DNA from: Apostichopus japonicus
Lineage: Eukaryota > Echinodermata > Holothuroidea > Aspidochirotida > Stichopodidae
Direction of reading: 5' to 3'
DNA length: 64,000 bases
Assembly: GCF_037975245.1 (NCBI RefSeq)
Contig: NC_092564.1
Location: forward strand, 27,510,984-27,574,983
Every line of letters begins with the position of its first letter. Position 1 is the stretch's first letter. The translations under genes and the position numbers were made by a program. Below, piece after piece: positions 1,968 through 64,000 of this stretch. Under the pieces are notes generated by a model, which was not told the DNA's origin, did not search any database, and saw only the letters and a list, made by a program, of their open reading frames with translations.

Positions 1968-4900
1968 CATCCAATCTTCCATCGGTAAATTTACAATCGT
2001 TGCCGGAGAAGCCTTCGGGACACCTGAAAGAGTAAAAGATACATTATCTTCATATATATTCCATAAAAAGGATTCATTTATATATGATAAACATTTAATT
2101 TAGTCCTGTTTTTATTAATTGAAAGAATAATATGAACGAGGCGTTGAAACGCAAACAACATGAGAAACTCACTCGCATCGTATGACATCTGAGAAAGGCA
2201 TGCACGTTCCACCGTTCAGACAATATTCGGTATTTTCATCGCAGGTCGCCGTACAGGAATGTCCTTCGCCGTTGCAATGAACACCAGTGGGGCAGCCCCT
2301 ATCGCTGATATTGCAGTAGTTGTATGCATACATTCCGCCTTGAATAAGAAGAAACGACAATTAATTTATATATCTCGTGATTTCATAATTAATCAGCATA
2401 TTTCAACATGTAATAAAACGAACAAACAGTCCTCGGAGTATCACGTTGTAATAGCCAATCAACCTGATTAAATATAACTTAACTCAGGCTCTCACTACCA
2501 CTTTAACGATGATCATCAAAACCACCCATTAACACCTCTATCAACAATACTAAATTAGCATCACTACCATTGTTATTAACACTGTTAACACGTACCAACA
2601 TCACAATCCGCACCCCTACCAACACCACGTCATCGCAAGTTATAGCACTGCGTATACACTACACCATTCTGTCGCATAACCGCACTCTACGATATCAAGC
2701 AACACCACTATTGATGATAGTTTTATCGAGTACCGCTTTGGTTTATTGATGAAACACTATAGGTTATAAAATCGATATAGTGAACCTCATGTTCTTCTAC
2801 CTCGAGCTTGCTTCTTCGTCGACTGTTCATGTTACATAACAGGCGCGTATCCAGGATTTTCTAACCCGGGGGGCGCGAACTACTATCTAAGCGGAGCGCC
2901 ACCATCGGTTGGCGCGCAGCGTACAAGAAAATTTCTGGTTTTGATACCCCCCCCCCCCCCCAGATCACCGGAAACGGCACTTCTCGGGCTTGAAATGACC
3001 AACCAGATGTACACTTTTGGCCTGAGAACCAAGTATCTCCTAATAGTTTTTTTTTCCATCCATAACCTTTTTGAAGATTGTCAACCCGGCACACGTCATG
3101 CTCGACCTGCTCGCATGTCCTGTGGGTCTTAGCTTTTGTAGGTGATTCTACGTCGCGGCCCACAATACCCGTCAGCCCCACTTTTCAAGGTTTTAAGCCC
3201 CAAATTTGTTCAGAATTTGAAAATTCACATTTCTCGTGAATAAACTCGCTTCAAAACATACCCATAATGTTGTACAAAATTTCATCTATGGACAACCAAT
3301 ATAGAAAAACTACCCTCAACCCCTAACAGACCGGTCAAAATTGCACGAGTAGAGGGATGTGTGATGCAGAATGTTGGTCAGAAATTGTCGAAAATTCAGA
3401 CACAGTTAATTTATTGGTGTACAAATATTAAACCTCTTATAACGGCTATTATAAAACTTGGTTGAAGGAAATGAAAAAATAGCAGATATTTCCGAAACCG
3501 AACACTACACACATAGGCGTAGGAGGCGCGGCGGCAGTGGCGGAGCTAGGGGTATTGGTCAGGAGGGGCGAGAATGGTCTGTAGGGGCGCTTTCGACACT
3601 ATCTAAGCGGAGCGCCACCACTGGTTTGCGCGTAGCGCACAGACAAATTTTCAGTAAAGATACTCCCTAGATCGCCGGAAATGACCCTTTCAGGGCCTGG
3701 CTAATTTGCAGATAAACGAAGAATAGGGTGTCATGGCCAAATTACACCAACAAAATGTGAGAAATGTCAATAAGTAGATGAGAGCGCAATAAAAAAGTCA
3801 ATAATCTAGAATAAGTAAAAAGTGGTAAAGAGCTGAAAAAGGCGCCAGCAGTCCATTTGAGTCCGTCAGGGGGCGCATCCGCCCCCTGACCGTATGGACG
3901 CTCTGCCACTGCGCGGCAGGGGTGCAGCCCCTAATTCGCAATTACTAATGTAAAAGAGAGTTTTGACATAATTGGACCTCCATGCTTTTTATACATCTAC
4001 ATGAGACATGTCGTTGTTTACATTAGCATCCCGCGGTATACTGCGTTTTTGGTTATTTTTTCAGGCAAGTCGGACAGTTTTGAGGATTTTCATCCTGGAA
4101 CGCCATTTTCACGCTCACTGATATGATGTGATATCTGCTGTTTGCGTTACAAATTCGAACAGGCGCGTGGCGAGGAATTTGCCAAGTGAGGGGCGAAGCC
4201 TGTAGGCAAATTATCTAAGCGTAGCGCCACCATAGGTTGGCGCGAAGCGTACAAGAAAATTTTGGCCGAAAATGCCTCCCAGATGGCTGGAAATGGCACT
4301 ATCCAGGACCATTTGTTAGCGCGAAGCGTATAGGCAAATTTTGGCCGAAAATGTCTCCCAGATCGCTGGAAATGACACTTCCCAGGCCTTGTAAGTTGCA
4401 TCTAAGCACTTTCTAGTTTGAAATTACTTAGCGATATCATTTAAAAAAATGCTAAATGGGGGGGGGGGGCGGTCGCCCCCATCCCAAAATGCGTCATGTT
4501 CCCCGACGACACGGTCGAGTTCGAGACCAGCCACAGTTGGTTTCATAGCACAATTCTACACACGCGTTATGATAGACCATATATAGTATATATATAGATC
4601 ATTAGTGAGAGAGGAAAATGGAAACGTAAAAAAAAATGGAGTTGTCGGTGTAAGGGGTAGGGTGAGGCACACTTTTACGAAATCATTGATCCGTCACTGG
4701 TTACCCTTCAGCGCTGTAATGATGTCACTGTTCCTCTTTCTCTTCCCGGTGTCTTCGCGTTTTCTTTTATTCCCTCCTTTTCTCCTTCTTCTCTCTTTCT
4801 TCTTTTTCTTTTCCCTTCCTTCCTCTCCTCCTCTTTTTCCCCTCTTTTTTCCTTTTTTTCTTCTCTTTTTTTTCTCTCCTCTTTTTCTTACCCGGGGGGC

Positions 4901-44800: not shown

Positions 44801-45100
44801 AGGGCAGTTTTAGTTAGACTAAAGTCAATTGACGATGTTAATGTTCAACACAAAAGTGATGATTGTTTATGGAACGTGAAGGGACATTCTAATGTCATTA
44901 TCACCATTGAGCTGAAAAAGTCTTACCTTTTTTTGGGCTTCAGTGATAAGATATATTTTATCCAACGAGGAAAATAATGTAAACAAGTTGTATAGTGATT
45001 ACATTCTAAATGAAGACATCAATGAGAATCAGGAAACGTTCCAAATGTATCCAATTGTTTTCAAGGACAAACCATAACAACAATATTACGATATTGTTAG
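41850..45100. other. Region between the GRAM exons and the MCM6 upstream array; no exon recognised
   Basis: Holds a GC-rich transposon-end fragment at 41973-42075 (GTTCTCGACGCCACTG), a C-run at 42338-42351, a (TA)n run at 43810-43835 and a small flanked insertion at 44157-44262. The first exons of the GRAM gene should lie here but were not found. Plus-strand frames such as 42028-42303 have no recognisable product. Confidence 0.45.
44144..44275. repeat. Short insertion between 13-bp direct repeats
   Basis: GGTCAATGATATG occurs at 44144-44156 and 44263-44275. The 106 bp between them is C-rich (CCCCGGGTCTGC, CCCGACCCCC), unlike the AT-rich surroundings. Confidence 0.55.
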
Positions 45101-45970
45101 TTTCTCGGTCGAAAATCCAGGTTTATCTAAATTACTATAAACATGGATTATAAATGCAAATCTGGAATTTTCTGTTGATATTTCAAAAATACTCGAAAAT
45201 GGTTGCAATAAACAGGGTTTCTCGAATGATAAACCTGGATTCTCGATTGACTTTCAAGATGCTTTGATAATGCAGGTTTTCAATTGATCAATCCAGTTTT
45301 ATTGCCGACAATCCAGAATCATCAATTGAAAACAATCTAGGTTTATCGTCGACAATTATCAGCCACAAACAGGGTTTATCAATCGACAGTCCGTGATTAT
45401 CAACAGAGAAGTCCAGGATTATGGATCTATAAACCTGGATTGCCACCGATATACTTGGATTTTCTGGTCGAAAATCCAGGTTAATCGAAACAACTTAGAT
45501 AACCTGGACTCTCAGTTGGAGAACATGGATTATCGATCGATGATCCAGGATTATCGCCGAAATCATTGATTGTCAATTGAGAATCCAGGTTTATCAAAAT
45601 TCAAAATTAGTTTGGTAAACCAAGTTTATCAGTCGATAATTCTGGATTTTCAACGTTTTTTTCGACAATCCAGGTTTTCGACCGATGATCTGGGTTTATC
45701 ACTGACTAGTCCAAGATTTTCGATTGATAATCCAGTTTTATCGGTCGATTATCCTGGGTTGTCACCGATTACCGGTAACCTGGATTTGATCATCCAGGTT
45801 TATCAAAATTACTTGATAAACCTGGATAATCAATTGAAAATGTTGATGTTCCAAGTTTTATTCGAGAATCCAGGTTTATCAGCGAAAATCCTGATTAATC
45901 GATCGATAAACTGGGTTTCTAGACTGTTTAACGTGGATTATCAACCAATAACCCGAGTTTATTGCTGTTT
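45100..45970. repeat. Degenerate array of CCAGG-cored motif in both orientations
   Basis: About 0.87 kb is built almost entirely from variants of AATCCAGGTTTATC and its reverse complement GATAAACCTGGATT, separated by ATCGAT/TCGATTGA-like spacers of about 10-15 bp. At least a dozen exact CCAGG/CCTGG cores occur among many decayed ones. A perfect 15-bp inverted repeat with a 6-nt loop lies at 45792-45806 and 45813-45827. A plus-strand frame (45570-45980) stays open and repeats ENPGLS/DYPGLS; it is a by-product of the repeat. Family unknown. Confidence 0.75.
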
Positions 45971-46074
45971 TTCGATTTAACGGGCATTTGGCGTGCCATA
46001 CATTTGGCTTGGGTGTTTCAACATAAAAACAGGGAGGAAGTACCACAGATTCAATATCCAAAACAAACCATGTG

Positions 46075-46234: not shown

Positions 46235-62522
<16,288 letters not shown>

Positions 62523-63004
62523 GTAAGCTACTATGGTTACAAAACTAGGGTCTTAAATATTTAAATCTTAACTTAATTGTCTCTTTTCTGTCCATTCTCT
62601 GAACAGATTTTTCTTCTAATTGTCTTAGCAAAGGGATTTTCTGAAACTCCACTAAAAAATAAATATAAAAGACCCTGTTGTATTTAACACATGTAATTTG
62701 TGAAGACAGGTAATAAAAAAATATAATTAGGAATGAAGCAGCTCTCATTGTTAGGGTTTTCTGTTTCTTAAGTTTGTCGCTTTATTGGACACGGTTTTGT
62801 ACGTAATATTACCTAGCTATACCAAGATGGTTCATGTTACAGTTAGCATAGACTTGTACACAGAGGAGGGTGGGTCCTATTGTTTAATAACCACAGGAAT
62901 CCATGGTAGGAGTCGCATAGCTTTCAGCATGGCACCTCATCTATTTAGCAGCAAACCAATCACTTACAAACCAATCACTTTTGTCAACGTATTTATATAG
63001 CTTT

Positions 63005-64000
63005 TATATAAAAAGGATGGGGGTAGCTACCATGTTAGTTTATTTAGAATGCTTTATATAGCTCTATGTACAATGGATGGGGGAATCTACCATGTTAGTT
63101 TATTTAGTAATGCTTTTATAGCTCTATGTACAAGGAATGGGGGTAGCTACCATGTTAGTTTATTTAGAATGCTTTATATAACTCTATGTACAAAGGATGG
63201 GGGTAGCTACCATGTTAGTTTATTTAGAATGCTTTATATAACTCTATGTACAAAGGATGGGGGTAGCTACCATGTTAGTTTATTTAGTAATGCTTTATAT
63301 AACTCTATGTACAAAGGATGGGGTAGCTACCATGTTAGTTTATTTAGAATGCTTTATATAACTCTATGTACAAAGAATGGGGGTAGCTACCATGTTAGTT
63401 TATTTAGAATGCTTTATATAGCTCTATGTACAATGGATGTGGGTAGCTACCATGTTAGTTTATTTAGAATGCTTTATATAGCTCTATGTACAAAGGATGG
63501 GGGTAGCTACCATGTTAGTTTATTTAGAATGCTTTATAAAGCTCTTTGTACAATGGATGGGGGTAGCTACCATGTTAGTTTATTTAGTAATGCTTTATAT
63601 AGCTGTATGTACAAAGGATGGGGGTAGCTACCATGTTAGTTTATTTAGAATGCTTTATATAGCTCTATGTACAATGGATGGGGGTAGCTACCATGTTAGT
63701 TTATTTAGAATGCTTTATATAGCTCTATGTACAATGGATGGGGGTAGCTACCATGTTAGTTTATTTAGTAATGCTTTATATAACTCTATGTACAATGGAT
63801 GGGGGTAGCTACCATGTTAGTTAATTTAGAATGCTTTATATAGCTCTATGTACAAAGGATGGGGGTAGCTACCATGTTAGTTTATTTAGAATGCTTTATA
63901 TAGCTCTATGTACAATGGATGGGGGTAGCTACCATGTTAGTTAATTTAGAATGCTTTATATAGCTCTATGTACAATGGAATGGGGGTAGCTACCATGTTA
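63005..64000. repeat. 60-bp tandem satellite running off the right edge
   Basis: About 16-17 head-to-tail units of 60-61 bp, each with GGGGGTAGCTACCATGTTAG, then TTTATTTAGAATGCTTTATA and TAGCTCTATGTACAATGGAT. Copies differ at few positions; several carry AGTAATGC in place of AGAATGC and shift by 1 bp. It lies in the MCM6 intron after exon 13. Because 60 is a multiple of three, a 20-residue period (SYHVSLFRMLYIALCTMDGG) stays open for nearly 200 codons, but this has no sign of being a gene. Confidence 0.95.

Follow-up and report, generated by a model that had tools for sequence, protein, structure and literature searches.

A Decayed Transposon End with a 21-bp Near-Palindromic Array Upstream of MCM6 in Apostichopus japonicus, Most Likely of the IS3EU/GingerRoot Superfamily

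Introduction

Families of the IS3EU/GingerRoot superfamily are described as possessing TA..TA termini and usually 6-bp target-site duplications (PMC10045372), and for one fungal IS3EU set the termini TAYGG..CCRTA are given together with 6-bp duplications (PMC12730594). Foldback-like elements, such as Galileo, Tetris, and the foldbacks of sea urchins, are non-autonomous and have long, internally repetitive inverted ends; their units measure approximately 210–220 bp, and their duplications are 7 bp long in Galileo and 8–10 bp long in Tetris (PMC3573991, PMC4079207). The tandem repeats of Galileo hold secondary transposase sites (PMC3573991). The En/Spm (CACTA) elements of plants, including Tgm of soybean, combine CACTA termini and a 3-bp duplication with clusters of short motifs of 12–20 bp behind each end, which are capable of stem-loop formation; the subterminal repeats of En/Spm are bound by the transposon protein TNPA (PMC2613891). 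Dada elements, finally, generate target duplications of 6-7 bp and contain subterminal inverted motifs, while terminal inverted repeats are absent and small RNA genes are strictly targeted (PMC3706591).

The present analysis concerns a stretch of 64,000 nucleotides of the sea cucumber A. japonicus, referred to as the window, in which a degenerate repeat array lies beside the replication gene MCM6. We regard this array, with considerable confidence, as the decayed remains of an old, non-autonomous cut-and-paste DNA transposon, which most likely belongs to the IS3EU/GingerRoot superfamily. An unexplained array by a replication gene would thereby become a defined mobile element, of which the ends, the target site, and the repeat architecture can be measured.

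The Array and Its Terminus

The following features were assigned in the window:

45090–45963, no strand assigned: subterminal array of 36 near-palindromic 17-mers (GATAAWCCWGGWTTATC), mostly at 20–22 bp spacing, defined by motif count and symmetric profile
45786–45833, no strand assigned: inverted repeat with 21-nt arms and a 6-nt loop, formed by two adjacent near-palindromic units facing each other, defined by inverted-repeat and fold analysis
45964–46000, forward strand: right-hand element end with the conserved terminus ...GTTTTTCGATTTAACGGGCATTTGGCGTGCCATA, last base 46000, 31 of 34 positions identical to the family consensus
46001–46006, forward strand: expected place of the 6-bp target duplication (CATTTG), adjoining the terminus; putative, the left end being unrecognizable
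46235–46327, forward strand: first coding exon of MCM6, a neighbour outside the element, human MCM6 being matched at E 4e-4 (chain residues 17–36)

The array of about 0.87 kb that a preliminary description had placed beside MCM6 is real. With a symmetric 17-bp profile, which had been trained on related loci including the window locus itself, 36 units were detected at 45090–45963, compared with approximately 0.5 per 900 bp in other parts of the window and at most three when the array was shuffled 200 times. The 13-mer ATCCAGGTTTATC, allowing up to two mismatches, occurs in 17 copies within 45090–45975 and in three copies in the other 63 kb. The repeat unit consists of GATAAWCCWGGWTTATC plus a 4-bp spacer. 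It is nearly palindromic: of its 8 arm pairs, 4.75 are complementary, compared with 2.1 in the background. Its period had been estimated at 25–30 bp; according to the profile units it is 21 bp, with 15 of the 35 spacings between adjacent units being exactly 21 bp and 22 of 35 falling between 20 and 22 bp. Units had also been reported in both orientations, and both are indeed seen, but with so nearly palindromic a unit there is, for the most part, no defined orientation. Since the array is too decayed, Tandem Repeats Finder detects just two copies over its length (45208–45250). A coding origin was set aside, the ORFs spanning the array being accounted for by the repeat structure.

The array closes at the conserved terminus ...TTTTTCGATTTAACGGGCATTTGGCGTGCCATA (to 46000). 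The window version of the family end is GGGCATTTGGCGTGCCATA, its last base (46000) lying 234 bp ahead of the MCM6 ATG, so that the feature reaches beyond position 45970, where it had been thought to end about 265 bp before the start codon. That MCM6 adjoins the array is borne out by the match of the first coding exon to the human protein and by a further exon matched after it; the likely ATG is at 46235. On the left, the best match to an element end within the window is no better than in random window segments, so that a target duplication of the window copy itself is putative.

The arms of the inverted repeat (45786–45806 and 45813–45833) are 95% complementary and enclose, as their core, the perfect 15-bp inverted repeat with 6-nt loop that had been noticed before; the fold z-score is -6.8. 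The hairpin is a consequence of two neighbouring near-palindromes facing each other. Within the unit, no covariation beyond column composition was detected, the two arms varying independently. This points to protein binding on the duplex more than to a hairpin maintained by selection, and selection on a hairpin or cruciform was rejected.

A Dispersed Family with Inverted Ends and 6-bp Target Duplications

When the genome of the same species (671.6 Mb in 35 contigs) was scanned for similar arrays, as had been proposed beforehand, with the array as query, related arrays were obtained from at least approximately 40 scored places scattered across most large contigs; E-values and counts of this search are lower bounds, and part of the family was read at sequence level. 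Most of these arrays finish in TTATTGGGCATTTGGCTTGCCATA, which is directed away from the array, and in several of them the opposite end is closed by the same sequence, inverted. Genome-wide, the family terminus has 23 exact occurrences and, with up to three mismatches, at least 309, with zero occurrences of the reversed control in either case. Six of the loci (L003, L008, L011, L015, L023, and L030), all on contig C12 at 7.69–8.16 Mb, contain element copies with long common flanks; to judge from these flanks, they are segmental duplications carrying one insertion. Five ends with identical matched sequence on contig C9 (23.37–23.80 Mb) suggest segmental duplication likewise.

Elements of the family start with TATGGCAAGCC and end with GGCTTGCCATA. 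Their terminal inverted repeats of approximately 28–30 bp, TATGGCAAGCCAAWTGCYCAATAAATCG, are inverted at the two ends, which read TATGGC..GCCATA at paired loci. Facing end pairs are 0.2–2.5 kb apart, often with the same arrays between them, and spacings of 20 and 21 bp predominate across loci (680 of those counted). In a younger subfamily (TTGAGCAWTTGGCTTGCCATA), copies measure about 2.4 kb; an array lies inside either end, and the non-coding middle of 1.3 kb that they have in common is 91–95% identical between copies. Some other copies are nearly all array, for example, the one at L089 with 38 units. At L005 (1435–1492), L020 (1168–1471), and L029 (1719–1830), ends are tandemly duplicated or directly face an inverted second end, which suggests nested or rearranged termini.

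Among 26 facing pairs, the six bases to the left of TATGGC are exactly those to the right of GCCATA in nine cases, and 14 of the pairs agree in at least five of the six flank positions, versus a mean of 1.5 and a maximum of 6 in 2000 shuffles of the partners. Exact flank duplications of 3, 4, 5, 7, 8, or 9 bp were found in none of the 26 pairs. The consensus of the duplicated target site is NACGTN, by which a 2-bp CG duplication initially suspected from the flanks is superseded; most pairs without matching flanks consist of ends that are old, nested, or incorrectly paired. The exact 6-bp duplications demonstrate that these elements transpose by inserting at a target site cut with a 6-bp stagger. 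Of the origins considered earlier for the array, that of a decayed transposon subterminal repeat region is supported by the common termini, the inverted pairs, and the 6-bp duplications at other loci.

A free-standing degenerate satellite, with the terminus as a chance neighbour, would share with the array a 21-bp period and the strong decay of an old minisatellite. Some young copies, moreover, have runs of identical 20-bp units, as satellites do; in one young copy such a run is as expected from recent tandem duplication. This explanation is nevertheless extremely improbable, as one and the same terminus closes arrays at many loci, both ends are inverted, exact 6-bp duplications are present, and the rest of the 64-kb window holds no further array of these units.

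Superfamily Assignment

The transposon is assigned to IS3EU/GingerRoot because the combination of TATGG..CCATA termini and 6-bp duplications matches the published signature. The TA..TA termini, the terminal inverted repeats of approximately 30 bp or more, and the 6-bp duplications of the described families all find their counterparts here. Long arrays of near-palindromic 20-21-bp units behind the ends do not appear in the excerpts considered (PMC10045372, PMC12730594). Superfamily membership, which is most likely on the sequence data at hand, is drawn from the termini and the duplication length only.

In the longer elements examined, neither a transposase gene nor an autonomous copy was found between matching ends, the interior consisting of non-coding DNA or nested insertions; the longer C15 element contains a nested non-LTR-like reverse-transcriptase fragment and no transposase, and the ORFs beside ends with few units did not reveal an autonomous partner. 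An integrase-like transposase of the IS3EU type would be expected in an autonomous copy; the genome contains integrase-core genes (Pfam family PF24764), none of which was found between family ends in the part of the family covered. The sole such gene near a matching end (L097) lies about 3 kb off and is without family termini. PF24764 integrase-core genes show a concentration on contig C17 at 15–27 Mb.

With no transposase recovered to decide the superfamily, it has to be considered that a non-autonomous transposon of another superfamily (Ginger-, Polinton-, or Dada-type) could have come by its TA termini and 6-bp duplications by chance, all the more as duplications of 6-7 bp are also made by Dada (PMC3706591). 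We consider this unlikely, since terminal inverted repeats are absent from Dada elements, which insert into small RNA genes (PMC3706591), and since TAYGG..CCRTA with 6-bp duplications is described for IS3EU (PMC12730594) and TA..TA for IS3EU/GingerRoot (PMC10045372). Membership in Dada itself was rejected in view of the clear inverted ends and the dispersed NACGTN sites of the present family. CACTA (En/Spm) membership, for which CACTA termini and a 2-3-bp duplication are characteristic, was rejected in view of TATGG..CCATA and the 6-bp duplications; what is shared with En/Spm is that short motifs able to form stem-loops are clustered inward of each end, the motifs themselves being unrelated in sequence (PMC2613891).

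Foldback-like features are present in the elements at L084–L091, the long inverted ends of which are mainly made up of short repeats with little or no coding DNA; they denote a structural class only and not descent, and unit size, duplication length, and termini differ from those of Galileo and Tetris (PMC3573991, PMC4079207). If the assignment to IS3EU is true, the superfamily gains a foldback-like form whose subterminal arrays consist of phased palindromes.

Possible Function of the Arrays and the Position at MCM6

A two-fold symmetric unit repeated every 20-21 bp, which is about two helical turns, suggests that a dimer binds at successive units along a single face of the DNA. A dimeric transposase or an accessory protein, supplied in trans, would bind the 17-mer units side by side on this face; once loaded on the arrays, the protein would help to recruit the enzyme and to pair the two element ends, and the arrays themselves would grow through local tandem duplication. 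The view of the arrays as protein-binding platforms is taken from TNPA on En/Spm (PMC2613891) and from the secondary sites of Galileo (PMC3573991), by analogy with which the subterminal palindromes are probable transposase-binding sites. Under the IS3EU assignment, a concrete binding-site prediction would be GATAAWCCWGGWTTATC every 20-21 bp.

The window copy would have inserted upstream of MCM6 and subsequently retained one end and approximately 0.9 kb of array. Its units score 14.7 bits, compared with 15.9 bits (sd 1.9) in other copies, which indicates that it is without extra conservation; the earlier proposal of a binding array or chromatin boundary for MCM6 is therefore unsupported. In addition, the array recurs at numerous places in the genome as part of a defined transposon, an outcome that the preliminary description had named in advance as speaking against function. 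It is conceivable that the element was exapted, that is, that the transposon-derived array now acts at the promoter of MCM6, either as a chromatin boundary or as a cluster of binding sites. Its location about 234 bp upstream of the ATG and the retention of 36 recognizable units, which is among the longest runs found, would fit this idea. We rate it as very unlikely, because the units are of a quality usual among old copies, an array of similar length exists elsewhere (L024, 35 units, 14.9 bits), and most large contigs have related arrays scattered along them.

The position of the decayed transposon copy upstream of MCM6 is thus most likely incidental. The array is probably no special switch for MCM6, a role in the expression of this gene not being indicated by its sequence. 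A wider scenario, in which an IS3EU-like lineage evolved very long, helically phased arrays of palindromic binding sites onto which a dimeric transposase is loaded in a multivalent manner, and promoter-near arrays such as that at MCM6 were reused as host binding clusters, appears quite unlikely as a whole. As a caution, degenerate arrays near promoters may be old transposon ends.

Other Repeats in the Window

Another dispersed repeat is present in the window at 769–1033 and 4159–4401. The young elements also contain it in their middle part (L085, 1335–1620), and the genome contains more than 4000 first-look candidates for it. In the MCM6 gene region, an (AT)n microsatellite with 96% matches extends from 48570 to 48632. 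A tandem array with periods of 60 bp and 181 bp (94% matches) occupies 62992–64000 and continues past the window edge.
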